Below are positions 2,245 through 14,870 of a DNA stretch of 64,000 nucleotides, one piece after another. The notes under the pieces were generated by a model, which made no database searches, was not told the origin of the DNA, and worked only from the letters and a program-made list of their open reading frames with translations. Source of the DNA: Dyella acidiphila (lineage in GTDB: Bacteria; Pseudomonadota; Gammaproteobacteria; Xanthomonadales; Rhodanobacteraceae); assembly GCF_014863405.1 (NCBI RefSeq), contig NZ_JACZZA010000008.1:124001-188000 (forward strand), given 5' to 3'. Each line of letters starts with the position of its first letter. The stretch's first letter is position 1. The translations under genes were made by a program, and so were the position numbers.

Positions 2245-3036
2245 ATGCATATGCCATCTTCAACTACCCCATCGTCGAGTGCGCATCCCTTGGCCGGCCG
2301 GCATGGCGTGCGCGACAGCCATGCCAAGAGCGATGTAAACGGCGAGCACGAGAACGTGCAGCGGTTCCGCACGCTGATGAACGGCAAGCCGCAACGCTCG
2401 AACAGCGGCAACGGCGAAAGCGATACGGACGACGAGCAAAGCACGGTCGAGGTCAGCGTCGACGCCAGTAGCGATAGCGATAGCAGTGTCAGCGACAGCC
2501 AGTCCGCGCCGGACCAGGAGCAGGCGCTGCGCGACTTGCTGCAGCAGCAGTTGAATCAGGCCAGCGGCCCCTTGTCCGGTCCGGCGGCTCGCGACCAGGA
2601 CAGCGGCGAGGATAGCGATGAGCAGGACGACCACCGTGACGACAGTCAGGCGGCGAACATCGGCATGCAGGCGCTGCATCTGGCCCAGCAGACGATGGTG
2701 CAGAACAGCCAGCAGCCGGCGGCGGCGACCCAGGCAGCGGCAGTGGCGCCGGCCCTGGCCGAATTGATCGAGCGGCATGTGAAGCAGTTGCTGGTACCCG
2801 ATGCCACCAGCCGCAGCGCGGCGCATGCACGCGAAATCATGATCACGCTGAAAGACGGCCTGCTGCCCGGCACCGAATTGTGGCTGAGCCGCACCAGCGA
2901 CGGCTGGAAGCTGCGCGCCGATACGCGCTCAAGCTCTGCTTATCGCAGTCTGCTCGAAGGGGCGCCGCAGCTGATCGAGCGCTTCGCGCAGAGCCGGCTC
3001 GGCACGCTGGAAGTGACCCCTACTTTGTTGGCTTGA
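2245..3036 (+). CDS. sctP: T3SS needle/substrate-switch protein SctP-like (HpaP/YscP/FliK type)
   Basis: The protein has 263 residues. Its first ~150 residues are disordered and rich in Ser, Asp, Gln and Glu, with an Asp/Ser run near residues 70-90. The last ~90 residues form a compact domain (ITLKDGLLPGTELWLSRTSD, then LRADTRSSSAYRSLL), which matches the C-terminal switch domain layout of FliK/YscP/HpaP. These proteins set needle or pilus length and switch export from early to late substrates. It begins at ATG after GAGG, seven bases downstream of the sctO stop, in the usual N-O-P order. No sctQ-like gene follows, so the operon ends or is rearranged after the next gene. Confidence 0.68.
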   Translation: MHMPSSTTPSSSAHPLAGRHGVRDSHAKSDVNGEHENVQRFRTLMNGKPQRSNSGNGESDTDDEQSTVEVSVDASSDSDSSVSDSQSAPDQEQALRDLLQQQLNQASGPLSGPAARDQDSGEDSDEQDDHRDDSQAANIGMQALHLAQQTMVQNSQQPAAATQAAAVAPALAELIERHVKQLLVPDATSRSAAHAREIMITLKDGLLPGTELWLSRTSDGWKLRADTRSSSAYRSLLEGAPQLIERFAQSRLGTLEVTPTLLA

Positions 3037-3046
3037 TGGTTCGCCC

Positions 3047-4456
3047 ATGTCGGATTCGTTGTTGCAAGCAGTGGTCGGCAATCCCCTGGACCTGCTCGGC
3101 CTGGGCCAGCAAAACCATGGCATGACCCTGCTGTTTCCGCTGTCGCAAGGCAATACGGTGAACGACCTGGCGAATGTGCTGAATGTGCCGGTCGATGCGA
3201 TTCTGGCAGTGAATCCGGGGCTGCAGGCGAACAGTCCGCTGAGCCTCAGCCAGGTGGTCGGATTGCCGGACGGGCATGTCGAGCAGATCATGCAGAGCGT
3301 GAGTCTGGTCGGCAATCGTGCCTACCTGCCCAGCGCGCCGTCGCCATCACCTTCGGATCAGCCGCCGCAGAGCAACCCGGCACCGGTGGTGCAGCTGTCG
3401 AACCAGGGTATCGAGCTGGTGTTGCCGGCGACACGCTCCGCCACGCTCGCCTTCGATGTGCTGAGCATGCCGCAGGCGCAGGTATCGCTCAGCGTCGGCG
3501 CGGAGCAGCAGGATGGTTGGACGGTAAGCATCATTCCCGCTGCACCGGTAGTGAGTGCGCCGATCAGTGTGCCGGCGCCTGCTCCGGTGCCGGTATCGTC
3601 CCAGCCGGTTGCTGCTGCGCCGGCACCGGTGGCACAGCCGGAACCGGCTGCTGTGCCGGTAACGCCAGCTGTAAATCTCGATCCCGATCGCGTTGCGGCG
3701 GCATCGCCCGGTCAGTTTTCGTATGTAGGTGTCAACAATGCCGGGCAGGGCACGAATGCTGTCGCCGGTAACGCGCCGTACCGCCAGCGCAATCCTTCTT
3801 CGGATATCCCGCCACCGCCGATCGATCCCAGCCGCTTTGCCGGGCCAGTCGCGAATACGGCGGTATCGAGTAACACCATCGGTGTGATGCCGCCGGTGGC
3901 GATCAACTCCGTGCTGCCGGCCGATGGCCGTCCGCTGACGCTGCAGATGATGGCGTTGATGCTGGCGGCGCAATCAGCTGGGTCGATCGCACCCGCCGGA
4001 GCAGCGCCTGCGCAGGTAACGCCGTTTATCGATCCGCAGGCGCTGGCCGCCATTGCTGTCAATCTTGGCGGCACACGGGTGGTCGATCTCGGTGCCGGGC
4101 GCAGCATGGAATTTTCGCTGGTGAATGATCGCTTGCGTCGTGTCGATCCGATCGGTGAAGAAGATCGGCCGAGTGCGCGGCGTACCGGCGATGGGCTGGA
4201 TGAAGTGCGCGTCAGCCCGGCGGAGAAGGAGCAGGCCGAGCAGACCGACGAGCAGCGCGAGCAGGGGCGTCGACGTCGTGCGGCCATTGCGGCGATGCGT
4301 CGGCGGCGGCGGGCGCGTACGCGGCGGTGTCGGTATTGGCGTGGTGCGCGGAGTGAGCTGCGTGCGGGTGCGCGGGGTTATCCGAAGCAGGTGGATCTGG
4401 CGGAGTTTCGCAGTCGGCAGGTGCCGCGTTATATGTGGACTGCCGGCAAGCCGTAG
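3047..4456 (+). CDS. Proline-rich T3SS-operon protein with a degenerate LysM-like N-terminus
   Basis: I do not recognise this 469-aa protein as a named family. Residues 25-85 look like a degenerate LysM repeat (TVNDLANVLNVPVDAILAVN, then a Leu-Ser-rich end). Residues ~100-220 are a Pro/Ala/Val linker and the middle is Ala/Gly-rich. The tail is strongly basic, with several Arg runs between residues ~405 and 440. It starts 10 bases after sctP and so probably belongs to the T3SS operon. There is no signal peptide. Position suggests a secreted or regulatory T3SS-associated protein, but this is inference. Its TAG stop is formed inside a copy of an extragenic palindromic repeat, so the last residues may be repeat-derived. 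Confidence 0.6.
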   Translation: MSDSLLQAVVGNPLDLLGLGQQNHGMTLLFPLSQGNTVNDLANVLNVPVDAILAVNPGLQANSPLSLSQVVGLPDGHVEQIMQSVSLVGNRAYLPSAPSPSPSDQPPQSNPAPVVQLSNQGIELVLPATRSATLAFDVLSMPQAQVSLSVGAEQQDGWTVSIIPAAPVVSAPISVPAPAPVPVSSQPVAAAPAPVAQPEPAAVPVTPAVNLDPDRVAAASPGQFSYVGVNNAGQGTNAVAGNAPYRQRNPSSDIPPPPIDPSRFAGPVANTAVSSNTIGVMPPVAINSVLPADGRPLTLQMMALMLAAQSAGSIAPAGAAPAQVTPFIDPQALAAIAVNLGGTRVVDLGAGRSMEFSLVNDRLRRVDPIGEEDRPSARRTGDGLDEVRVSPAEKEQAEQTDEQREQGRRRRAAIAAMRRRRRARTRRCRYWRGARSELRAGARGYPKQVDLAEFRSRQVPRYMWTAGKP

Positions 4457-4559: not shown

Positions 4560-7500
4560 TTATCCGAGTTCGCCGATGTATTGCTGCGTCTGGTCGGCGG
4601 ACAGCACGCCTGCGCTCTGCGCGTTTTGCAGCGCCGACGTCGCCGCTTGCGGCCAGCCGTTGTACGCATACGCGTTGCCCATCTGCTCCACCCACGCATC
4701 GAGCGAGCCGTTGTTCTTCATGATGCTGATGATCTCGGCCTGATACGCCGCGTTGTGGTTGCTCTTGAGCAGGTTGCCGATTTGCGCCGGCTGCATGCTG
4801 CCGCTGGATTGCGCCAGTTCGTAGTCGTAGTCGGCCTGGCGCCGCGCATCGCCGTCGGGACTGAATACCTCGGGCGAGTGGCTTTGCACATAAGCCTTGG
4901 CGTGGGCGAAGCCGCCGCCGCCGATCAGGTTGACGAGGTTGGCGGTATGGCTCAGCGGCATGGCGGGGTTGTTGGCGGGCGAGCTGTTCTGGGCGAAGAA
5001 CAGGTTGAGGTAATTCGGATTGTCCTGCTGCAGCGCGGAGAGAAAGCCGTTCGCATCGGCCGGCTTGATCTGGCAAGCCTTCAGTACATTGATCAGGCCT
5101 TGCGTATACGCGCTGCCCTGGCCGAAGGCTTCCGGGTGCGCGACCAGAATGTCCTGCGCCTGTTGCGCATTGAGGCCCAGCTGCGAGGCGAAGGCGTTGA
5201 TCGCGCCGCCGTCCTTGGCCATGGCTTCGGCTTCTTCCTTGTCGCTGATCCCCGCTGCCTGCAGGTATTTCACCTGCTCTTCCTGGAATTCCTGCTGTTC
5301 CTTGTTGCCGACCAGGATATGGCCGACCAGCTCGAATGGCGCGGAGATCAGCGTGCCGATGCCACTGACCACTTCGCCTGCCACGGCGGCAGGCGGAAAG
5401 TTCTCCATGAAACTGCCCATCACCGACAGCACGTCGCCGGCGATGGCCAGCGCATACATGGCGCCGCCGGCACTGCCGGTATTGTTCTTTGCTTCCTGCA
5501 GATCGGAGGCGAAGGCACTGGTGCTAGCGACCATCGCCAGGCCGGGCACGAAGCGTGAGCCAAGCCGTGCCATCGCTTCGGCAGAGGCGTTGAAGGCGCC
5601 GAACTTGCCGGCATCGGCCATTACCTGCAGCACGCCGGTGCCGACTTCGGACACATCGCCGCCGGCCATCGAGAACGCGTTGATGGTTTCGTTGATCTGC
5701 TCGGCGTTGGCGCCGTTGATGCTGTCGACGGTGATCGCGGCCACCGCCCAGGCTTTGCCGGAGGCGCCCATGGCCTTGTAGCCCTCGGCGAAATTGGCCG
5801 GCGTAAACGCCTTGGTATCGCCATTGGCCAGCGCTTCGAAACCTTCCTTCACCTGGTTCCAGCCGTTGCGGCCCTTGAACACCGGATCGGCCAGTTCCAA
5901 TAGTTCGCTGGCGGCGGACTTGGTATCGCCGTTGTGCTCGACCAGCAATTCGCCTTCTGCCGCTTTCACCGCGTCGGGCAGGAAGCTGCTCTGGTAGTCG
6001 GAGAATTTGCCGAAGGCCTTGGATGCGGCGGCATCGTTCTGCACATAGCCAGCAAATTGCAGCGCGACCTTGCCCTGGCCCGACTGCACCAGATCCTGCA
6101 TGCAGCTGTAGAGCTGCTGCGCGGCGGCCTGGTTGTGGCCGGCCGCGTACAGCAGGGCCGACTGGTTGTTCTGCATATAGGTGGCCAGCGTCTTTGCCGC
6201 CGTGGCGTCGGCCTGGTAGACCTTGGCGTTGTCCGGATCGCTGCGATACGCCTTGATAAAGGCCTGCTGCTGCGCATAGGTGAGCGGGCCGGACTGGGCC
6301 AGCAATTGCGCCAGGGTCTTGTCTTTGTCTTCGGCGGCGCTGTGCGCGGCGTCGTAGGCCTTGAGCGGACTGTTGCCGTTGTTGGCGAGGTAATCCTGCA
6401 CACCTTGCGCGCCTGCATCGAAGGCATCCTTGGCGGCACTGCTCTGACCGCGTGCCTGCAGCGCATTGCCGAATGCGATGGCGAAGTTCGGATTGCCGGC
6501 CGCGCCGAAACCGGGGCTGTCGAGAATGCTGTTTTCCAGTTCGCTGGTGGTGCCGCCGCGGGTAAGAAAGCCGACGCTGCCGAGATTGCCTGCATAGGCA
6601 TCGGCGACCTGCTGCACCACGGCGTTGGCGTTATCGCTGCTGCCCAGGTTGGCCAGCACGCTTTGCACGCTGTCGAACGGCACCATGCTGCCGGCGTAGC
6701 CGAGCTGCAGCTGCGCGATCTTCTGCAGGGTCGGCATGCTGGCCTGGGTGACCGCGGTGGCGAGTTCTGGCGACAGGCCGGTGGTGGCGGTTTCCAGCTG
6801 ATTGGCGGCGGCGGTGGCCTGGTCCTGGGCGTAATACACAGCGTCCGGCTTGACCTGCGCATACGGCTGCGCCACTTGGTTGGCCTCGGCCTGGATCCAG
6901 CTTTTTACCTGTGCGTCGGCCAATACCTGGTCGACCACGTTTTGCGGCTGGCCTTGCAGCTGCTTGCTCAGGCTTTGCAGTTTGTCCTGCGCGCTACCAC
7001 TGCCGGGCACAGCGGCGATCAGTGTGCTGGCCTTGTTCTGCAGTTGATAATTGCTGACGCAGGTAGTGACCGCGGCTTGCGTGTCCGGATCGCTGGCATA
7101 GCGCTGGGCAATCGACTGGCCGAAGCTGGCGATCAGCTGGTCGGTGGGCGTGCGGAATTGCGGCGGCACGCCATTGTTGCGATTGGCGATCTCGCCGGCG
7201 ATCTCATGCTGGATCGCGGTATCCATTGTCTGCTGTGCACTATTGACCGACGCGGCATTGTCTTCAGAAATCTCGGTGCGAATGCCCATATTGTGCGGCG
7301 CATTCTGCAGTGCCTGCTTGGCTTGGGCGACAGCGGTCTTGTAGGCGCCGACCGCCGCATCGGTTTGCTGTTGCAGCGACTGGTTCGACGGCAGCTGCTG
7401 TTTGGGCGGCGGCGGTACCGCATTGGGCGGCAGCGTAAGCGTCTGCCCTTCGCTCAGCGTGGTGCCGACGGCGATGCCGTTGGCGCGCGCCAGTTCTTCC

Positions 7501-7625
7501 GGTGTCACGCTGTAGCTTTGCGCAATGCTCTGCACGGTGTCGTGCGGCTGCACTTGATAGGTGCTTGGCGTGGGTTGCGGCGGCGGAACGTAGGCGGCGG
7601 AAGAGCCGGGAGAAACAGGAAACAT
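4560..7625 (-). CDS. Large LysM-domain protein, candidate T3SS translocator or effector
   Basis: The 1021-aa protein has no signal peptide. Residues 1-22 are Pro/Ser-rich, and residues ~23-68 form a clear LysM domain (VQPHDTVQSIAQSYSVTPEE, ending GQTLTLPPN). A very long Ala/Gln/Asn-rich helical body follows. A hydrophobic zone at about residues 690-775 contains GGAMYALAIAGDVLSVMG and VVSGIGTLISAPFELVGH. The C-terminus again has short helical repeats. A long hydrophilic body with late amphipathic or transmembrane segments is the layout of T3SS translocators such as HrpF/NolX, but I see no diagnostic motif. It lies 63 bases downstream of the lipase gene on the same strand and probably shares its promoter. 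A non-T3SS toxin or surface protein remains possible. Confidence 0.62.
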   Translation of the reverse strand: MFPVSPGSSAAYVPPPQPTPSTYQVQPHDTVQSIAQSYSVTPEELARANGIAVGTTLSEGQTLTLPPNAVPPPPKQQLPSNQSLQQQTDAAVGAYKTAVAQAKQALQNAPHNMGIRTEISEDNAASVNSAQQTMDTAIQHEIAGEIANRNNGVPPQFRTPTDQLIASFGQSIAQRYASDPDTQAAVTTCVSNYQLQNKASTLIAAVPGSGSAQDKLQSLSKQLQGQPQNVVDQVLADAQVKSWIQAEANQVAQPYAQVKPDAVYYAQDQATAAANQLETATTGLSPELATAVTQASMPTLQKIAQLQLGYAGSMVPFDSVQSVLANLGSSDNANAVVQQVADAYAGNLGSVGFLTRGGTTSELENSILDSPGFGAAGNPNFAIAFGNALQARGQSSAAKDAFDAGAQGVQDYLANNGNSPLKAYDAAHSAAEDKDKTLAQLLAQSGPLTYAQQQAFIKAYRSDPDNAKVYQADATAAKTLATYMQNNQSALLYAAGHNQAAAQQLYSCMQDLVQSGQGKVALQFAGYVQNDAAASKAFGKFSDYQSSFLPDAVKAAEGELLVEHNGDTKSAASELLELADPVFKGRNGWNQVKEGFEALANGDTKAFTPANFAEGYKAMGASGKAWAVAAITVDSINGANAEQINETINAFSMAGGDVSEVGTGVLQVMADAGKFGAFNASAEAMARLGSRFVPGLAMVASTSAFASDLQEAKNNTGSAGGAMYALAIAGDVLSVMGSFMENFPPAAVAGEVVSGIGTLISAPFELVGHILVGNKEQQEFQEEQVKYLQAAGISDKEEAEAMAKDGGAINAFASQLGLNAQQAQDILVAHPEAFGQGSAYTQGLINVLKACQIKPADANGFLSALQQDNPNYLNLFFAQNSSPANNPAMPLSHTANLVNLIGGGGFAHAKAYVQSHSPEVFSPDGDARRQADYDYELAQSSGSMQPAQIGNLLKSNHNAAYQAEIISIMKNNGSLDAWVEQMGNAYAYNGWPQAATSALQNAQSAGVLSADQTQQYIGELG

Positions 7626-7688: not shown

Positions 7689-9026
7689 CTACCAGTTCCA
7701 CGGCAGCGCGTCTTTGGCGTGGCTGCCGACCCAGTCCGCCGCCTTTCTGGTCGCGTTGACGCCGGTGGTGATCGCGCCGCCGAAAAATTCCACTGCGCCC
7801 TGCTGCAGATGGCCGGCTACTTCAATGCCACCTTGCGCGAGGCCGCCGGCCACGGTGATGGTCTTGTCGCTGACCGTGCCGAGCGTGCGCATTGCATTGC
7901 CGGCCCAGTGGCCCGGTTTGCCGAGATGATCGAGCGCGCTGCCGGCCGCATCGAAGGTGCTGGACGCCGCGCCGCCGGCCTTGTCGGCCACCGTGCCCAC
8001 CGCATTGGCGGCGGTGTTGCTGGCGTTGCCGTAGAAGCCGGCAATGCGCGAGGTGATGCTGGTGTCGCGCAGGTAGTTGCCGTTGTGATTCCACGGCTGG
8101 TCGTTCTGCAGGGCATCGATCACCGAATTCATCAGGTGATCGCGCACGCCGCTGACGGTGTCGGTGATCAGGTTCAGGCCGGGCGCTTCCAGATACCAGG
8201 CTGGTTTGTTCGGATCGCGCAACTGGATTTCATGGCCCAGCGCCTGCGGAATCAATCCGCGTGCCGCGCCGGTCTGCTGTTCGCCGGTAAGGATGTCGCC
8301 CTGCACGGCGTAGCGGCGGACCAGGCCGTCGCTGGCGGCCTGCTTCATCGCGGCGACATTGCCTTCCGGAGCCAGGCGCTGCAGCGTCGCATCGTTCACG
8401 CCAGCGGCGTTGAAGGTGACTGCGGGCGTGTCGGTGATTACCGAAGCGGTGGACGCCAGACCGCCGCCCAGCGAGTGGCCGGTGAGCACCAGGTTGTCGC
8501 CGAAGGCCGCCTTGGCCTTGGTGGCCAGCGCCGTCGCTTCGTCGTATTGCGCAGTATTCAGGCCCAGTGCCTGGGTGGCATCGGCCTTCCAGTCCTGGGC
8601 GCCGGAGGTGCCTTTGAAAGCGAGCACGTAATCGCCCTTGCCGTCCTGGTAGAGCGCGGCGCGGAAGCCGGTGGAGGTGTCGTTCAAAGACGCCGGATCG
8701 ATATCGGCCGCTTCCAGCTGTGCATCGCTCAGGCGCGTCCAGCCATCGATATTCTTGTTGTCGAGGTTGTAGGAATCCTGCGCCAGCTTGGCCAGGTCCA
8801 GATCGATCGGCTTGGCATCCTGGCCTTCCACCTGCTGCGCAAAGCCGGGTGCCTGTTTGGTCTGGAAACTGGCCAGTTGTACGGCTTGCGCGTTGTAGGC
8901 GAGCTGCGGCGTGGAGCTGTGCTGGTCGGCGCTGGCGACGGCTGCGCTGGAACTGGCTTCGTCTTCGGCCGGCGCGATGGCCGTATCGGTGAACTGGCGT
9001 CGACTGATGCTGGCGTCCAGAAACAT
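7689..9026 (-). CDS. Class-3-type lipase, candidate secreted effector
   Basis: The 445-aa protein has no signal peptide; its first ~50 residues are Ser/Ala/Gln-rich and look disordered, as in many T3SS-exported proteins. The catalytic core carries FKGTS at ~137-141 (oxyanion strand of class 3 lipases) and the nucleophile elbow GHSLGG at 183-188, with Ser185. Asp244 (VQGDILTG) and His265 (GHEIQL) are candidates for the rest of the triad. The last ~110 residues are Ala/Gly-rich and helical. It starts at ATG after GGGAGG. Class-3 lipases are known among plant-pathogen T3SS effectors (XopAP/RipAL) and among T6SS phospholipase effectors. The T3SS neighbourhood favours the former, but this is inference. 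Confidence 0.75.
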   Translation of the reverse strand: MFLDASISRRQFTDTAIAPAEDEASSSAAVASADQHSSTPQLAYNAQAVQLASFQTKQAPGFAQQVEGQDAKPIDLDLAKLAQDSYNLDNKNIDGWTRLSDAQLEAADIDPASLNDTSTGFRAALYQDGKGDYVLAFKGTSGAQDWKADATQALGLNTAQYDEATALATKAKAAFGDNLVLTGHSLGGGLASTASVITDTPAVTFNAAGVNDATLQRLAPEGNVAAMKQAASDGLVRRYAVQGDILTGEQQTGAARGLIPQALGHEIQLRDPNKPAWYLEAPGLNLITDTVSGVRDHLMNSVIDALQNDQPWNHNGNYLRDTSITSRIAGFYGNASNTAANAVGTVADKAGGAASSTFDAAGSALDHLGKPGHWAGNAMRTLGTVSDKTITVAGGLAQGGIEVAGHLQQGAVEFFGGAITTGVNATRKAADWVGSHAKDALPWNW

Positions 9027-9082
9027 GACAAGCCTCCCATGCGATACCTGGGAACCTTAGCGGGCGGGATCGAGGGGAACAG

Positions 9083-9115
9083 CTAGGGCTTTCCCTGGGC
9101 TAGGGACAGCCCTAG
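9083..9115. promoter_or_regulatory. Two tandem CTAGGG-N4-CCCTAG palindromes upstream of the lipase gene
   Basis: CTAGGGCTTTCCCTGG (9083-9098, one mismatch) is followed directly by the perfect CTAGGGACAGCCCTAG (9100-9115). They lie 57-89 bases upstream of the lipase start codon, where an activator site would sit. Hexamer half-sites with a 4-base spacer resemble sites of NarL/LuxR-type response regulators; the cognate protein is not identifiable from the window. Confidence 0.65.
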
Positions 9116-9171
9116 GGATACGCAGGGGGAGGCAGGCTGCATGGCTGCGAGGATGTTCATGTATTCGATAA

Positions 9172-9253
9172 ACCGTCGTCCCGGTACAGGCCGGGATTCA
9201 GCGACTTCGCTGAGTGAAAGACACTGGGTCCCGGCCTGCGCCGGGATGACGGT
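9172..9253. repeat. Extragenic GTCATCCCGG-type repeat, composite copy
   Basis: Terminal arms ACCGTCGTCCCGG (9172-9184) and CCGGGATGACGGT (9241-9253) are inverted and nearly identical. Inside is a second hairpin, CAGCGACTTCGCTG (9200-9213). A simpler member of this family lies at 41581-41614. Confidence 0.75.
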
Positions 9254-9310
9254 GGGGGGCTCTGTCAGTTTGTGGTTGACGGTCTGGCGGCGGTGGGACA
9301 GCGATGCGGC

Positions 9311-10075
9311 TTAATGCACGCCTTCCTCCACCGCCACCTGATGCTGCCGCAACCACTGATGCACCGCTTCATGCTGTGCCTGCGCCGCAGGATTGAGTCC
9401 GCCGGCAGGAAGAATATTGAAATAGGTCTGGAAGGTATCGCCGTGCTTGTTGCGCCGGCTGGGATCGGCACCGGCCTTGAGCAGCGCCAGCACGCATTGC
9501 GGCTTGTGCACCTGCGCGGCGACATGCAGCGGCGTGTCGCCCAGGCGATCGGGGCGATTCGGATCGGCGTGATGCGCCAGCAACAAGTCAAATGCGTCGT
9601 TCTGCGGATTCATCAGCGCCGCATCGATCGGCGGCGCCTGGGTGACGCCGTGTGGCGCATTGGGATCGGCGCCATGGTCGAGCAGCAGTTTCAGATAACT
9701 GACGTCGTTGGCCTTGGCCGCAAGATGCAGCACGGTATCGCCGCCCAGACCCGGCTGCGAGGCCTGGGCGCCGGCATCGAGCAGGGCGCTCATGGCCGGC
9801 TTGCTTTGCCGCAGCAGCGCCCATTCCAGCAAGGTGACATCGTCCTTGCCCTGCGCATCGGGATTGGCGCCTTCCGCCACCATGGCGCGTACCCGCGCAC
9901 CGTCGCCGCCCAGCGCGGCGTTGGCCAGCGCAATGGTCTTGGCCTCGGAGAACACATTGCTTGCGTCGGCATTGCTCATGGCTTCTCTCCCGGCGGTGCT
10001 TGTCGCCACCATCAAACCTGCCAGCAGCATACATAGGCCATAGCTGCACTTTTGTATAAGTCGCATCGGGTCCAT
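9311..10075 (-). CDS. Ankyrin-repeat protein, probably exported
   Basis: This 254-aa protein carries at least four ankyrin repeats from about residue 60 on, for example GGDTVLHLAAKANDVSYLKL and LGDTPLHVAAQVHKPQC. Ankyrin repeats bind proteins and have no catalysis. The N-terminus (MRLIQKCSYGLCMLLAGLM, then VATSTAG) looks like a Sec signal peptide, which would place it in the periplasm; the start may be ATG 10075 or 10066. A third ATG at 9979 has a stronger Shine-Dalgarno (GGGAGAG) and would give a 222-aa cytoplasmic form. A CTAGGG-N4-CCCTAG palindrome lies ~90 bases upstream, as for the lipase gene, so the two are likely co-regulated. It could be the lipase's immunity protein, by inference only. 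Confidence 0.75.
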   Translation of the reverse strand: MDPMRLIQKCSYGLCMLLAGLMVATSTAGREAMSNADASNVFSEAKTIALANAALGGDGARVRAMVAEGANPDAQGKDDVTLLEWALLRQSKPAMSALLDAGAQASQPGLGGDTVLHLAAKANDVSYLKLLLDHGADPNAPHGVTQAPPIDAALMNPQNDAFDLLLAHHADPNRPDRLGDTPLHVAAQVHKPQCVLALLKAGADPSRRNKHGDTFQTYFNILPAGGLNPAAQAQHEAVHQWLRQHQVAVEEGVH

Positions 10076-10165
10076 TCCACACGGGACGCAAGGGCCGCAC
10101 GTTCACATCTCAATGACGTGGGTGAACGGCCGCTGCCTACGATAACGGCCGCCTTTGACCGGACC

Positions 10166-10185
10166 ATCTAGGGACAACCCTAGAT
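10166..10185. promoter_or_regulatory. Perfect CTAGGG-N4-CCCTAG palindrome upstream of the ankyrin gene
   Basis: ATCTAGGGACAACCCTAGAT has 8-base inverted arms and an ACAA spacer. It shares the hexamer half-sites and spacing of the pair at 9083-9115 (the spacer ACAG there, ACAA here). It lies 90-110 bases upstream of the ankyrin start codon. Confidence 0.65.
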
Positions 10186-10668: not shown

Positions 10669-11241
10669 ATGAAAAAATTTGTCAGCGCTGCCGTTATCGG
10701 CGGTCTGCTGTTTGCCGCAAGCGCTCATGCTTCGGACGGCACCATCACTTTCACCGGCTCGGTCACGGCGAATAGCTGCACCATCAAGATCAACGGCGGC
10801 TCGGCTACCGCGACGGTGGCGTTGCCGGCGGTGTCGTCCAGTCAGCTGGATGCGGCCGGCAAAACGGCCGGCTCGACCAAGATCACGTTCGATCTTGCCG
10901 ATTGCGTAAGCGGCGATGCCGCGGCAACCGGTGCAGTGAAGGCGTTTTTTGAAGCCGGCGCCAACGTGGATGTGGCCAGCGGCCGTCTCAACAATACGGC
11001 CAGCGGCACCGGTGCGGCCAAGAATGTGCAACTCGAGCTGGTCAATAGCGATGACTCGGTCATCAAGGTCGGCGATGTCAGCTCGATCAAGGGCGGCACG
11101 CTTACGGCGGGCGCCGCTCCCAACGACAAGAAGAGCTCGGCGCAATTTGCCTATGCCGTGCGTTATTTCAAATCGGGCGCAGATGCCGTAGGCGCCGGTA
11201 CGGTGTCCAGTTCGGTGACTTACAGCGTGGTGTACCAGTAA
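10669..11241 (+). CDS. Major fimbrial subunit of a chaperone-usher pilus
   Basis: The 190-aa protein has a Sec signal peptide (MKKFVSAAVIGGLLFAASAHA, cleavage before SDGT shown here by its last residues SAHA). The mature start GTITFTGSVTANSCTI is the donor strand plus first cysteine of type 1 pilins. The second cysteine is in LADCVSGD, giving the usual single disulfide. The C-terminus ends in the beta-strand VTYSVVYQ with tyrosine second from last, as chaperones need. It is assembled on the cell surface by the two genes downstream. The start follows AAGGA about 10 bases upstream. It is the only subunit gene in the operon. Confidence 0.92.
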   Translation: MKKFVSAAVIGGLLFAASAHASDGTITFTGSVTANSCTIKINGGSATATVALPAVSSSQLDAAGKTAGSTKITFDLADCVSGDAAATGAVKAFFEAGANVDVASGRLNNTASGTGAAKNVQLELVNSDDSVIKVGDVSSIKGGTLTAGAAPNDKKSSAQFAYAVRYFKSGADAVGAGTVSSSVTYSVVYQ

Positions 11242-11249
11242 TCCGCGCA

Positions 11250-11283
11250 GGGGCGGCCGTGCCGGCATGGCCGCCCCCTTTTC
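11250..11283 (+). terminator. Hairpin between pilin and chaperone genes, probable attenuator
   Basis: GGGGCGGCC (11250-11258) pairs perfectly with GGCCGCCCC (11269-11277) and is followed by CCTTTTC. It would end most transcripts after the pilin gene, giving more subunit than chaperone and usher. Confidence 0.6.
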
Positions 11284-11295
11284 AGGATCTTATCC

Positions 11296-12024
11296 ATGAA
11301 GACCAAACTGTTTGCCGGCGCACTGTGCGTCGGCCTTATTTTCTCGTCCCTGCTGCATGCCAGCGTGACGATCGATCGCACCCGCCTGATTTACCAGCAG
11401 GACGATCGGGAAGCCGATGTGCGACTGCGAAACGACGGACCTAAACCGGTTGTCGTGCAGTCGTGGCTGGATAACGGCGATGCCACTCAGGCACCGGCCG
11501 ATATTCCGGTGCCGTTTGTACTGATGCCGCCGATTGCCCGCGTCGAGGCGGCGCATGGCCAGGTGCTGCGCGTGGTCTACACGGGCGAGCCGCTGCCGCA
11601 CGACAAGGAGTCGGTGTTCTGGCTCAATGTTCTGGAAATTCCGCCGAAGGAACAGCCAGCCGAGTCGCGCAACGTGCTGCAGTTTGCCATTCGCAGCCGG
11701 ATCAAGCTGTTCTATCGCCCCAAGGGTCTGTCCGGCGATGCGGCAGACGCGCCATCGAAGCTGACCTGGAAAATTGTGGCGCAGGGCGATGGCTATGCGC
11801 TGGAAGCGAGCAATCCCACCGCTTATCACGTCAGCCTCAATCGCGTGGCATTGCAACTGGACAGCCGGATCATCGAAGCCGGCGACGGCATGGTCAGTCC
11901 AGGCGAGACGCAGCGCTATGCGTTGAAAGGCGTGCAGCAGGCGCCCGCTGCGGGACGCGTCAAATATTCCTTTATCGATGACTGGGGCGCCATCCGCGAC
12001 AACGGCGCCGCCGAGCTGCATTAA
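11296..12024 (+). CDS. Periplasmic pilus chaperone (PapD/FimC family)
   Basis: The 242-aa protein has a signal peptide (MKTKLFAGALCVGLIFSSLL, cleaved near HA-SVT). The two-domain immunoglobulin fold of PapD proteins follows. The conserved arginine is in DRTRLIY and the conserved lysine in RSRIKLFYRP; both anchor the subunit C-terminus in this family. The signature VLRVVYTGEPLPHDKESVFW covers the G1 strand and the loop after it. It holds pilins in a folding-competent state and delivers them to the usher encoded next. Confidence 0.93.
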   Translation: MKTKLFAGALCVGLIFSSLLHASVTIDRTRLIYQQDDREADVRLRNDGPKPVVVQSWLDNGDATQAPADIPVPFVLMPPIARVEAAHGQVLRVVYTGEPLPHDKESVFWLNVLEIPPKEQPAESRNVLQFAIRSRIKLFYRPKGLSGDAADAPSKLTWKIVAQGDGYALEASNPTAYHVSLNRVALQLDSRIIEAGDGMVSPGETQRYALKGVQQAPAAGRVKYSFIDDWGAIRDNGAAELH

Positions 12025-12083
12025 AGCTCGCCGCACTTGCGGACGCGCCTTTGCGCTCCCCCAGCGACCGACGGTATGTGAGC

Positions 12084-14870
12084 ATGTCCACTTCGACGTT
12101 GATCCGCCCCGCCGGGGGCGGGGAAGAGCTTCGTCAAAAGCGTTTGCACTTGCGTATCGCCTATGCCTTGGCCGGCCTGGCGATGTTGCCCGGTGCAGCG
12201 TTGGCTGGCGGTGCCGCAGCGGCATCGGCTGCGTTGGCGGCAGGTGGTTCGGCCCATGGATTGGATTTCGACGCCACGTTTCTGTCGGGCGGTGCGAGTT
12301 CGGCCGATCTGGAGCGCTTCGCCCAGGGCAATCGCGTGCCGCCGGGCGACTATCAGGTAGACGTCTATTTGAATGAAGCTCTGTGGGGCAGCGAGCGCGT
12401 GCATTTTGCCGCCGTGCCCGGTTCGGACGATGCGGTGCCGTGTATCACCCCGGAACTGGCCAGGCGGCTTGGTCTTGATTTGACCGGCGTTGCGCCGGAG
12501 TCGCCGTGCCTGGATCTTGCGGCATGGGCGCCGGCCGCCATCGCCCGCTTCGACTTTGGCGAGCAGCGCCTGGATATCGGCGTGCCGCAGGCGAAGCTCA
12601 AGCGCAGCGCGCGCGGCTATGTGGATCCCTCAAAGTGGGATCGTGGCATCACCGCCGGTCTGCTCAATTACGATCTGAATATGTATCGCAGCGACAGCGG
12701 TACGCGGAGCGACACGCAGGGCTATCTGGGTGTGGCCGGTGGCTTGAACCTCGGCGGCTGGAACCTGCGCCATCAGTCGTCGCTGACCTGGAACAGTCGA
12801 CGGCAAGGTCCGCAATGGCAGAACCTGCGCAACTATGCGCAGCACGATCTCGTCCGCCTGAAGTCGCAGCTGCTGGTGGGCGATTTCACCACCGATGGCG
12901 ATCTGTTCGACTCCATGCCGGTCCGCGGCGTAGAGCTGTTCAGCGACGAACGCATGCTGCCCGATTCGCAGCGCGGCTATGCGCCGGTGGTGCGCGGTAT
13001 CGCCGCCACCAATGCCAAGGTGACGATTCGCCAGAACGGTTACACCATCTATGAAACCACCGTGGGTGCGGGGCCGTTCCTGATCAACGACCTGTATCCG
13101 TCTGGTTATGGCGGGGACCTGGAAGTGTCGGTACTGGAAGCGGATGGGCGCACGCAGAAGTTCAACGTGCCGTACGCCGCGGTGCCGCGCATGCTTCGCC
13201 CGGGTTCCACGCGTTACAGCGCAGCCATCGGCGAATACCGCGAAGCGGTGGGCGGCACCGCGCGCTCGCCGGTACTGCAGGCTACGGTGCAGCGCGGTAT
13301 CAGCAATCGCTTTACGGGCTATGCCGGTCTGCAGGCGGCCGAACATTACGGCGCATTGCAGCTTGGCGGCGCCTGGAATACGCGGATCGGTGCTTTCGGG
13401 CTCGACGCGACGCATGCGCGGACCAGTCTTCGGGCCGTGCCGTCTCCCGATCCGGCGCGGCTTGCACAGCGGGCGAGGAAGGCCAGCGGCCAGAGCATCC
13501 GCATCAGCTACAGCAAGGCGCTCAACGATGGCGGAACCAATCTGTCGCTGGCGGCTTATCGCCATTCCACTGGCGATTTCTACAGCCTGCGCGATGCATT
13601 GCGCGCCAACCAGGAGCCGGGTTCGGGCAGCATGCACCAACGCAACACGCTCCAGCTGGTGCTGAGCCAGAAGCTGGGGTCGGGCTCCATCTACCTGACC
13701 GGTTCCACCCAGAACTATTGGGGGCGCCCCGGTGGCGATACGCAGTACCAGTTGGGATACAACAACGCCACGCGCTGGTTCAATTACTCGATTTCCGCCG
13801 CGCGTTCGCGCAACAGCGAAGATCGGTGGGAAAACCGCATCTATGCAACGTTGTCGATTCCGCTGGGCGGCAGCGGCAGTCTCAATAGCAGCGTCAATGT
13901 CGGACGCCGTGGTATCGGCAGCCAGGTCAACTACAGCAATCTGGCCGGCGATCGCGGCAGCTACGGCATCTCGCTGGCACGTGATGAAGCGGCAGCCACG
14001 TCGTTCAACGCCAACGGCAGCTATCGCGCCGATGCGGCCATCCTCAACGGCAGCGCGGCCACCGGCAACGGCTATCGGCAAATCGGGTTCGGCGCGGCCG
14101 GGTCGATCCTGGCGCATGCCGGCGGCGTTACGCTGGGGCAGAACATGGGCGATACCATCGCCCTCATCAAGGCCCCCGATGCCGCCGGTGCGCATGTGGC
14201 TTCCTATCCCGGCGTGCAGCTCGATCGCCGCGGCTATGCCATCGTGCCGTATCTGGTGCCGTATCAGCGCAACCAGGTGGAGCTGGATCCCAAGGGGCTG
14301 TCCAGCGAGGTGGAGCTGGTTCAATCCAGCCGCGAGGTCGTGCCGCGCAGCGGCGCGATTGTGCTCGCCAGCTTTGAAACCAAGAAAGGCCGCGTCGCCG
14401 TGATCGATTTGAAGCCGGCCGCGCACGTGACCATCCCGTTTGGTGCCGACGTGCTGGATGAAGGCGGCAATGTGGTGGGGGTGGTGAGCCAGGGCGGCCG
14501 CGCGATGGTGCGCGGTGTTGCCGATCGCGGCCGCCTGACGGTGGCGCTGGCCGGCGGCAGTCGTTGCAGTTTCGGCTATCAATTGCCGGCGAAGAACGCA
14601 AAAGCACGCGGTGCTGCCGATTACGCGCATTTGCAAAGTGTCTGCGATCCAGGCAGCAAGGATGTGGACGCCACATCTGGCTCAGGGCCGAAAGCTGATG
14701 CTGCCGCGCGTTCGAAGACGGGGAAAGCACGCAATTCGGCTGTGTACATGCTGCCACCCAGTAGCGGCATTTCAGGTTTCAGTCACGGCTTGCCTGAAAA
14801 CGAACGGTATTGGACTACGCCGCGATTCGGTTTGACGCACCTGGATGCCGTGCGGAGCAAGGGCGTTTAG
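12084..14870 (+). CDS. Outer membrane usher (FimD/PapC family)
   Basis: This 928-aa usher forms the outer membrane pore that assembles the pilus. After an unusually long N-terminus, the signal sequence ends near LPGAALAGG (about residue 45). The N-terminal subunit-binding domain starts at LDFDATFLSG with DYQVDVYLN. The barrel and plug carry PVRGVELFSDERMLPDSQ, GYAPVVRGIA and FLINDLYPSGYGGDLEVSV, all family signatures. Past the C-terminal domain (FGYQLP) there is an extra ~90-residue hydrophilic tail without a recognisable motif. ATG 12084 was chosen over an upstream TTG because the latter lacks a ribosome site. The stop overlaps the convergent hydrolase gene by four bases. Confidence 0.93.
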   Translation: MSTSTLIRPAGGGEELRQKRLHLRIAYALAGLAMLPGAALAGGAAAASAALAAGGSAHGLDFDATFLSGGASSADLERFAQGNRVPPGDYQVDVYLNEALWGSERVHFAAVPGSDDAVPCITPELARRLGLDLTGVAPESPCLDLAAWAPAAIARFDFGEQRLDIGVPQAKLKRSARGYVDPSKWDRGITAGLLNYDLNMYRSDSGTRSDTQGYLGVAGGLNLGGWNLRHQSSLTWNSRRQGPQWQNLRNYAQHDLVRLKSQLLVGDFTTDGDLFDSMPVRGVELFSDERMLPDSQRGYAPVVRGIAATNAKVTIRQNGYTIYETTVGAGPFLINDLYPSGYGGDLEVSVLEADGRTQKFNVPYAAVPRMLRPGSTRYSAAIGEYREAVGGTARSPVLQATVQRGISNRFTGYAGLQAAEHYGALQLGGAWNTRIGAFGLDATHARTSLRAVPSPDPARLAQRARKASGQSIRISYSKALNDGGTNLSLAAYRHSTGDFYSLRDALRANQEPGSGSMHQRNTLQLVLSQKLGSGSIYLTGSTQNYWGRPGGDTQYQLGYNNATRWFNYSISAARSRNSEDRWENRIYATLSIPLGGSGSLNSSVNVGRRGIGSQVNYSNLAGDRGSYGISLARDEAAATSFNANGSYRADAAILNGSAATGNGYRQIGFGAAGSILAHAGGVTLGQNMGDTIALIKAPDAAGAHVASYPGVQLDRRGYAIVPYLVPYQRNQVELDPKGLSSEVELVQSSREVVPRSGAIVLASFETKKGRVAVIDLKPAAHVTIPFGADVLDEGGNVVGVVSQGGRAMVRGVADRGRLTVALAGGSRCSFGYQLPAKNAKARGAADYAHLQSVCDPGSKDVDATSGSGPKADAAARSKTGKARNSAVYMLPPSSGISGFSHGLPENERYWTTPRFGLTHLDAVRSKGV

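Follow-up and report, generated by a model that had tools for sequence, protein, structure and literature searches.

The T3SS regulon of Xanthomonas is marked by HrpG/HrpX and the PIP box. In Salmonella, the 18-bp SsrB palindrome of 7-4-7 arrangement described in the available text of PMC2837388 lies before SPI-2 operons and dispersed effectors, and in the HrpX/HrpY system HrpY acts via HrpS, sigma-54 and HrpL, as given in the accessible part of PMC12910134. Of two further accounts, each available in part, one (noted in 2026; PMC13163355) states that the T3SS cluster of Lysobacter antibioticus Hz25 includes genes for a kinase and a response regulator and that its secretin gene is located outside it; the other reports that Dyella japonica MF79 keeps its effect on plant immunity when its T3SS, which may or may not be the present one, is mutated (PMC11928319). 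A description of the operator considered here was not found in the open PubMed Central literature as far as its text was available, and the CTAGGG strings met in the accessible parts of PMC5715377 and PMC6821963 fall within primers.

The locus analyzed here is a 64-kb stretch of Dyella DNA (the window), corresponding to C27:124001-188000 in a 5.07-Mb genome of 28 contigs. We consider it highly probable that CTAGGG-N4-CCCTAG palindromes in this stretch are activator-binding operators of a T3SS regulon, bound by a FixJ/LuxR-type regulator encoded within the T3SS cluster itself. That this regulator binds the dyad we infer from linkage, co-occurrence and class.

Palindromes in the window and across the genome

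The initial annotation had placed perfect CTAGGG-N4-CCCTAG palindromes at two places, and direct reading of the sequence finds them at 9100-9115 (the distal lipase operator; PWM score 21.1) and at 10168-10183 (the ankyrin promoter operator; 25.0), together with the claimed second copy beside the lipase site at 9083-9098 (the proximal operator, with one mismatch and 17 bp from the distal copy; 20.1); all three are training sites of the matrix. The distances given for them hold, the lipase start at 9026 lying at 57 and 89 bp and the start of the ankyrin ORF at 10075 lying at 93 bp, as does the statement that the window contains no other copy, its remaining matches all carrying 3 mismatches. Two perfect copies compare with 0.003 on average over 300 dinucleotide shuffles of the window, and three copies with at most one mismatch compare with 0.03, the largest shuffled count being 1 in both cases. 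Copies with up to 3 mismatches are not enriched in the window (10 vs 15.95 expected; 95 of 100 shuffles reach 10), so that only near-perfect copies are informative. CTAG is itself rare in the 64 kb, with 19 occurrences vs 208 expected from base composition.

Two neighboring features deserve mention. Between the lipase and ankyrin genes, an inverted repeat at 9172-9253 has 36-nt arms that are 81% complementary; it may be a dispersed repeat, because a similar string, GCGCCGGAATGACA, sits upstream of the kinase gene. On the other side of the ankyrin gene and divergent from it, ORFs at 10669-14870 resemble a fimbrial operon (subunit, chaperone and usher by appearance). The fimbrial gene at 10669 (+) was considered as a target of the 10168 site and rejected, being 486 bp off and having, on its strand, no -10-like box at a distance of 22-25 bp.

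The whole genome holds 4 perfect copies and 8 with at most one mismatch, while a reversed control pattern gives 1 and 11, respectively. All eight precede T3SS-linked genes and are thus not randomly placed. Those on C27 lie at 106063, between a LysM protein gene and a needle-like gene (needle match 19.6 bits, under the Pfam cut-off of 29.4); at 109279, between sctU and the divergent orf92-orf213; at 115675, before sctV; at 133083 and 133100, before the lipase gene; and at 134168, before the ankyrin gene. The other two, at C25:6853 and 6869, precede the gene for a 612-aa protein whose domains are LysM and lysozyme, a match to CHAP staying below cut-off. Weaker copies with 2 mismatches, at C27:105986, 106046 and 107394, fall inside the same T3SS cluster, which spans from about C27:102.7 kb into the window and so starts about 21 kb to its left. 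SctU, SctV, SctC, SctD and SctJ of this cluster exceed curated cut-offs. Within the window, all on the plus strand, the ATPase SctN is encoded at 394-1746 (TIGR02546, 594.7 bits against a cut-off of 604.75; TIGR01026, 539.5 against 379.5), preceded by an ORF at 9-413 that is called SctL-like from position only (it has the same place in related T3SS regions) and followed by three ORFs at 1743-2237, 2245-3036 and 3047-4456. The first two of these are SctO/SctP-like by position (gene order) only, and the ORFs at 2245-3036 and 3047-4456 gave no NCBIfam match. The idea of a private regulon beside a T3SS is not supported, as the same operator also fronts T3SS structural operons (sctV, sctU and the needle-like gene) and candidate substrates elsewhere.

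Conservation of the operator with the T3SS

SctV was sought in 197 genomes of the family and gave 17 matches, of which 15, own genome included, are of the present type (at least 63% identity) and two, in G003 and G033, belong to another T3SS type at 40-42% identity; a class-wide search at a stringent cut-off found SctV only in this genome among 369. Copies with at most one mismatch number 125 in the 15 T3SS genomes vs 15 in 15 genomes without this T3SS (Mann-Whitney p 4.9e-6), in a comparison for which the T3SS-free genomes were hand-picked before these counts were known, the perfect counts being known for most, and in which the reversed control pattern, too, shows a modest excess in the T3SS genomes (325 vs 243, p 0.007). 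G007 and G025, with one perfect copy each, were kept among the T3SS-free genomes, and G008 and G013 (same genus, less complete, and with no SctV match) were excluded; outside the family, G039 has one perfect copy. In stretches from T3SS genomes, 123 distinct sites have at most one mismatch, and 112 of them are followed at 25-200 bp by what could be a gene start, a lenient count because later in-frame start codons were allowed. Many remote sites of this quality in T3SS genomes front ordinary-looking genes and may be due to chance.

Clusters of this type are uniform in carrying a kinase-regulator pair between sctQ and sctV (15/15). With 2 mismatches allowed, 13 of the 15 have the palindrome ahead of sctV, the sctV genes of G068 and G070 having no site and G068 having a single site with at most one mismatch in all. 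For sctU, which 13 regions contain, the palindrome is found upstream in 11, and the total for this site is 13 of 15, since the contigs of G002 and G004 break there and the site was seen on other contigs. Neither a kinase-regulator match nor a copy with at most one mismatch is present in the two regions with the other T3SS type. When conservation was checked at the level of the lipase orthologue, the site was found to be kept in all five other T3SS regions holding one (G127, G103, G115, G089 and G024). In these five, even with 2 mismatches allowed, no copy lies between the lipase and the directly downstream ankyrin gene, and a separate ankyrin site is thus special to this genome among those compared.

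The commonest near-copy in the T3SS-free genomes is CTAGGGTTTTCCTTAG, present in 5 of the 15 and treated here as unrelated to the operator. This element occurs with or without a T3SS, in G001, G006, G010, G011, G015, G103 and L149 (G089). A cold-shock-like gene lies about 70 bp past it in L149, from a T3SS genome, and a variant in L148 (G007) is placed likewise.

A test set of 398 genomes of the order yielded 13 with this T3SS from a second family, none of which had been used for the matrix. Kinase and regulator are present in all 13 clusters, the regulator being 52-55% identical, and every one of the 10 stretches holding sctU has a site with a score of 13.7-27.9 between this gene and orf213, although these ten sites are not independent (they are orthologues, and those of G788 and G778 are nearly identical). 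On the orf213 side a -10-like box stands at 23-24 bp in 10/10; on the sctU side a -10 box at 22-25 bp is seen in 0/10, and no site scoring at least 9 precedes sctV in any of the 13 clusters. The second family is probably Lysobacteraceae, because its clusters gave no sctC match and the secretin gene was noted in 2015 to be missing from Lysobacter T3SS clusters (PMC4657364, in the text available). The SctR match falls into two pieces about 255-360 bp apart in 12 of these 13 clusters (L240-L252) and is one longer piece in the thirteenth, as if a stretch had been inserted in sctR.

Beyond these sets, the sites of Saccharospirillum salsuginis (L163) precede sctV, sctU and a needle-like gene, those of Lysobacteraceae PS02065 (L161) number three, and a 12-kb stretch of Lysobacter ISL-50 (L162), which does not include sctU, has none. 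Kinase and regulator accompany 28 of 28 clusters found via SctV (15 + 13); L161-L163 also hold both, but were found via the regulator. In 69 FixLJ loci without sct genes there are no sites with at most one mismatch, 8 with at most two, and 5 PWM hits in 1.25 Mb.

The regulator and the promoters it may serve

The regulator is encoded at C27:113229-113828 and the adjoining FixL-like kinase at C27:113825-114922, both on the minus strand. Assignment of the regulator to the NarL/FixJ class follows from its match to NF006900 FixJ (E 1.3e-63, residues 7-196) and from its best solved match, FixJ 5xso (residues 5-196); it is not FixJ proper, its 214.3 bits being below the NF006900 cut-off of 255. Similarly, the kinase is not FixL proper (NF041777, 173.4 bits vs a cut-off of 850, for the kinase core only). 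It has HisKA and HATPase domains, with an AHELNQPL box that is invariant in 13 sequences, and no strongly hydrophobic stretch, the top 19-residue hydropathy being 1.15. Pfam gave no PAS match in the kinase; a PAS-like order of elements can be made out by eye in its N-terminal part (model mean pLDDT 72.9), and the best fold matches of the model are LOV-histidine kinase chimeras at a TM of about 0.42. In a tree of 87 regulators, the 18 that are embedded in T3SS clusters (the 15 plus L161-L163, the 13 of the second family being left out) form one clade with support 99/97, the bootstrap being not fully settled.

One NarL/LuxR-type regulator had been suggested to switch on both the lipase and the ankyrin gene, and a single LuxR/FixJ-type regulator linked to the T3SS is what our indirect evidence supports. 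It is also possible that the dyad is indeed the operator of the T3SS regulon and is bound by a regulator encoded elsewhere, the FixJ-like protein standing upstream in a cascade, as HrpY does via HrpS. Such an arrangement would resemble Erwinia HrpX/HrpY, which works via HrpS and HrpL (PMC12910134, accessible part), and it would fit with binding of the FixJ-like protein to the dyad being itself a deduction; candidates to the left of the cluster are a NarL-type regulator at C27:93813-94508, with a kinase-like ORF behind it, and a regulator at C27:98882 that is OmpR-like by appearance. We judge it unlikely, given that the FixJ-like regulator contributes the sole DNA-binding domain among the ORFs scanned in the own cluster and is present in 15/15 and 13/13 clusters, and that hrp boxes are not in excess in the 15 regions (8 vs 10 in shuffled sequence). 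No operator precedes the operon comprising kinase, regulator and sctQRST in any of the 15 clusters (no PWM hit of at least 5 within 300 bp upstream), suggesting a different control for this part of the machine.

Sequence alignment defines the operator as a 20-bp dyad, A-N-CTRGGG-W4-CCCYAG-N-T, that occurs singly or in tandem with 16-17-bp steps. Among 118 rows kept of 154, the bases outside the 16-mer used for searching are also symmetric (A at 0.66 two bases out, T at 0.70 in the mirrored position) and the spacer is A/T-rich; 106 of the rows could be oriented with a gene of at least 90 aa, and the rows are not independent, as they include orthologues and both strands. The sequence TANNNT starts 23-25 bp past the palindrome in 34 of the 106 oriented rows, where 2000 shuffles reach at most 10, and YANNNT does so in 53, about half being without a box. 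A -10-like box is found in 61 of 128 oriented targets (at least 70 aa), the remainder including bystander genes on the other strand, and in only 5 of the 22 members of the LysM family. In the window, putative -10 boxes read from the sequence and placed by spacing class are TAAGGT at 9054-9059, 23 bp past the proximal lipase operator, and TATCGT at 10139-10144, 23 bp past the ankyrin operator, both on the minus strand. Between the divergent sctU and orf92 genes every sctU row (12/12) and every orf92 row (8/8) has a correctly spaced box, and one dyad at sctU can, to judge from this layout, serve two divergent promoters.

With the -10 box taken as -12 to -7, the center of the dyad falls near -43/-44. 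No clear -35 box accompanies it: at least 4 matches to TTGACA occur in 7 of 62 box-bearing rows, compared with 9% in shuffles, and the mean match is slightly above that of shuffles (2.61 vs 2.32 of 6). The combination of a -10-like box at 23-24 bp and no clear -35 box suggests activation from about -43. RNA polymerase could be blocked by a dyad placed at about -36 to -51, as would be expected of a repressor operator that covers the promoter and is vacated when T3SS genes are needed. We regard this as very improbable, since promoters that lack a clear -35 box seem weak enough not to require repression and since the 23-24 bp spacing, where a box is seen, is constant, as contact activation predicts. 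The same constancy bears on the notion that the palindromes form hairpins in RNA, as terminators or mRNA structures, or that they belong to a dispersed repeat placed by chance. Perfect inverted repeats can form stems, copies changed on both sides (CTGGGG-N4-CCCCAG) occur, and the pairing pattern is compatible with an RNA hairpin because selection for at most one mismatch removes two-sided changes; yet the dyad keeps a constant distance to a -10-like box downstream of it, serves divergent genes, and is present in only 8 genome copies with at most one mismatch, so that we give this notion almost no weight. A terminator, riboswitch or repeat was also rejected, as the window matches nothing in Rfam at gathering scores, the copies are few and the distance to the -10 box is constant.

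For operators acting through an activator, we propose that the FixL-like kinase, which has no evident membrane span, would supply a phosphoryl group on a cytoplasmic signal, and that the phosphorylated FixJ/LuxR-type regulator would bind the dyad as a dimer. Bound near -43/-44, it would recruit RNA polymerase as a class II activator. The lipase gene, with the LysM protein gene behind it, and the ankyrin gene would then be switched on along with the secretion machine.

Candidate cargo and comparison with known systems

The three window genes behind the operators lie on the minus strand. The first encodes a lipase-like protein of 445 aa (7689-9026) with no hydrophobic N-terminus, a candidate T3SS substrate, which matches Mbeg1-like PF11187 at 25.9 bits (cut-off 21.1) and the Lipase_3 and SA1320 families below cut-off. 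Located 63 bp behind it on the same strand, and probably co-transcribed with it, is the gene for a 1021-aa protein (4560-7625) with an N-terminal LysM domain (PF01476, 39.6 bits). The ankyrin-repeat protein of 254 aa (9311-10075; Ank_2, 72.4 bits) has a Sec-like hydrophobic N-terminus. In this genome the order of lipase and ankyrin is swapped and each has its own operator.

Among the 128 oriented targets, the largest families are LysM proteins (22), small needle/harpin-like proteins (14) and SctU (12), followed by orf92 (8), SctV (7), lipases (6) and GNAT proteins (5). The LysM pattern is visible in 17 of the 22, and the four that were Pfam-scanned were all confirmed; these proteins are large, examples being those at window 4560-7625, L024:12701-15985, L026:4979-6817 and many remote loci. 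Pfam scans of ten chosen targets left four with nothing above cut-off; the other six are a DUF1521 protein, a calpain-like protease, a lysozyme and an N-acetylmuramidase that each carry LysM, a protein with LysM alone, and a Peptidase_M91 protein (a family that Pfam labels 'Effector protein'). None of the 22 LysM-family and 6 lipase proteins has a strongly hydrophobic N-terminus (at most 1.4). The ankyrin orthologues have one in 6 of 6 cases (1.7-2.4, with start codons chosen by hand), so that the ankyrin protein is probably a Sec-exported one rather than a T3SS substrate. As the lipase adjoins the ankyrin in all 6 regions holding the latter, the ankyrin may protect against or assist the lipase, the two forming an effector-immunity or helper pair.

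A broader reading, which we offer as a speculation that is unlikely to hold, is that the operator marks a T3SS lineage of soil Xanthomonadales, reaching Saccharospirillum, whose cargo is directed mostly against cell envelopes: large proteins with LysM at the N-terminus, some fused to lysozyme, muramidase or CHAP, and the lipase, with the Sec-exported ankyrin perhaps as an immunity partner. The machine would then act mainly on walled microbes (fungi, oomycetes and bacteria) and not on the animal or plant cytosol, under one cytoplasmic FixLJ-type sensor. Whatever its targets, the little-studied T3SS of Dyella, Frateuria and relatives gains a candidate master switch that can be tested, together with a 20-bp operator of near-strict sequence. 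This operator can be used, as the hrp box or PIP box is, to list substrates by sequence alone, and so far it has singled out LysM proteins and lipases as well as a calpain-like protease, a DUF1521 protein and a Peptidase_M91 protein. A list of the regulon makes it testable what these soil bacteria inject, and into whom.

Several described systems share parts of this arrangement. Like HrpX/HrpY of Erwinia, Pectobacterium and Dickeya, the pair described here is a two-component system dedicated to a T3SS; unlike the HrpY-HrpS-HrpL cascade, one operator fronts structural and substrate genes directly and hrp boxes are not in excess. The count of sigma-54 boxes in the 15 T3SS regions, 0 both as observed and in shuffles, is uninformative on this point. 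FixL/FixJ are the best or near-best family match for both proteins, which nevertheless fall below the curated cut-offs and whose targets are T3SS genes. In the same bacterial order, the HrpG/HrpX-PIP box regulon of Xanthomonas is likewise a T3SS regulon tagged by a short operator. HrpX is of AraC type. Of the 15 regions, however, 10 have no strict PIP box; 7 strict PIP boxes (3 in shuffles) and 21 loose ones (11 in shuffles) occur in these regions, and the one strict box of this genome falls within the sctJ match. The account of Lysobacter antibioticus Hz25 (PMC13163355), in the text available, gives no operator, regulon or regulator class.

A close parallel is with SsrA-SsrB of SPI-2, where a response regulator and inverted half-sites with a 4-bp spacer likewise front T3SS operons and scattered effector genes, effector status being deduced in the present case. 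The two differ in that the half-site here, CTAGGG, is near-strict and often at constant spacing from the -10 box, whereas the SsrB element is degenerate and its spacing is not strict. They also differ in that the regulator is FixJ-like and the kinase FixL-like, and that their own operon has no site (0/15), whereas ssrA-ssrB has two copies. The T3SS-wide operator is real, and it is in kind like the palindrome of SsrB, with a FixJ-like regulator and a different sequence.
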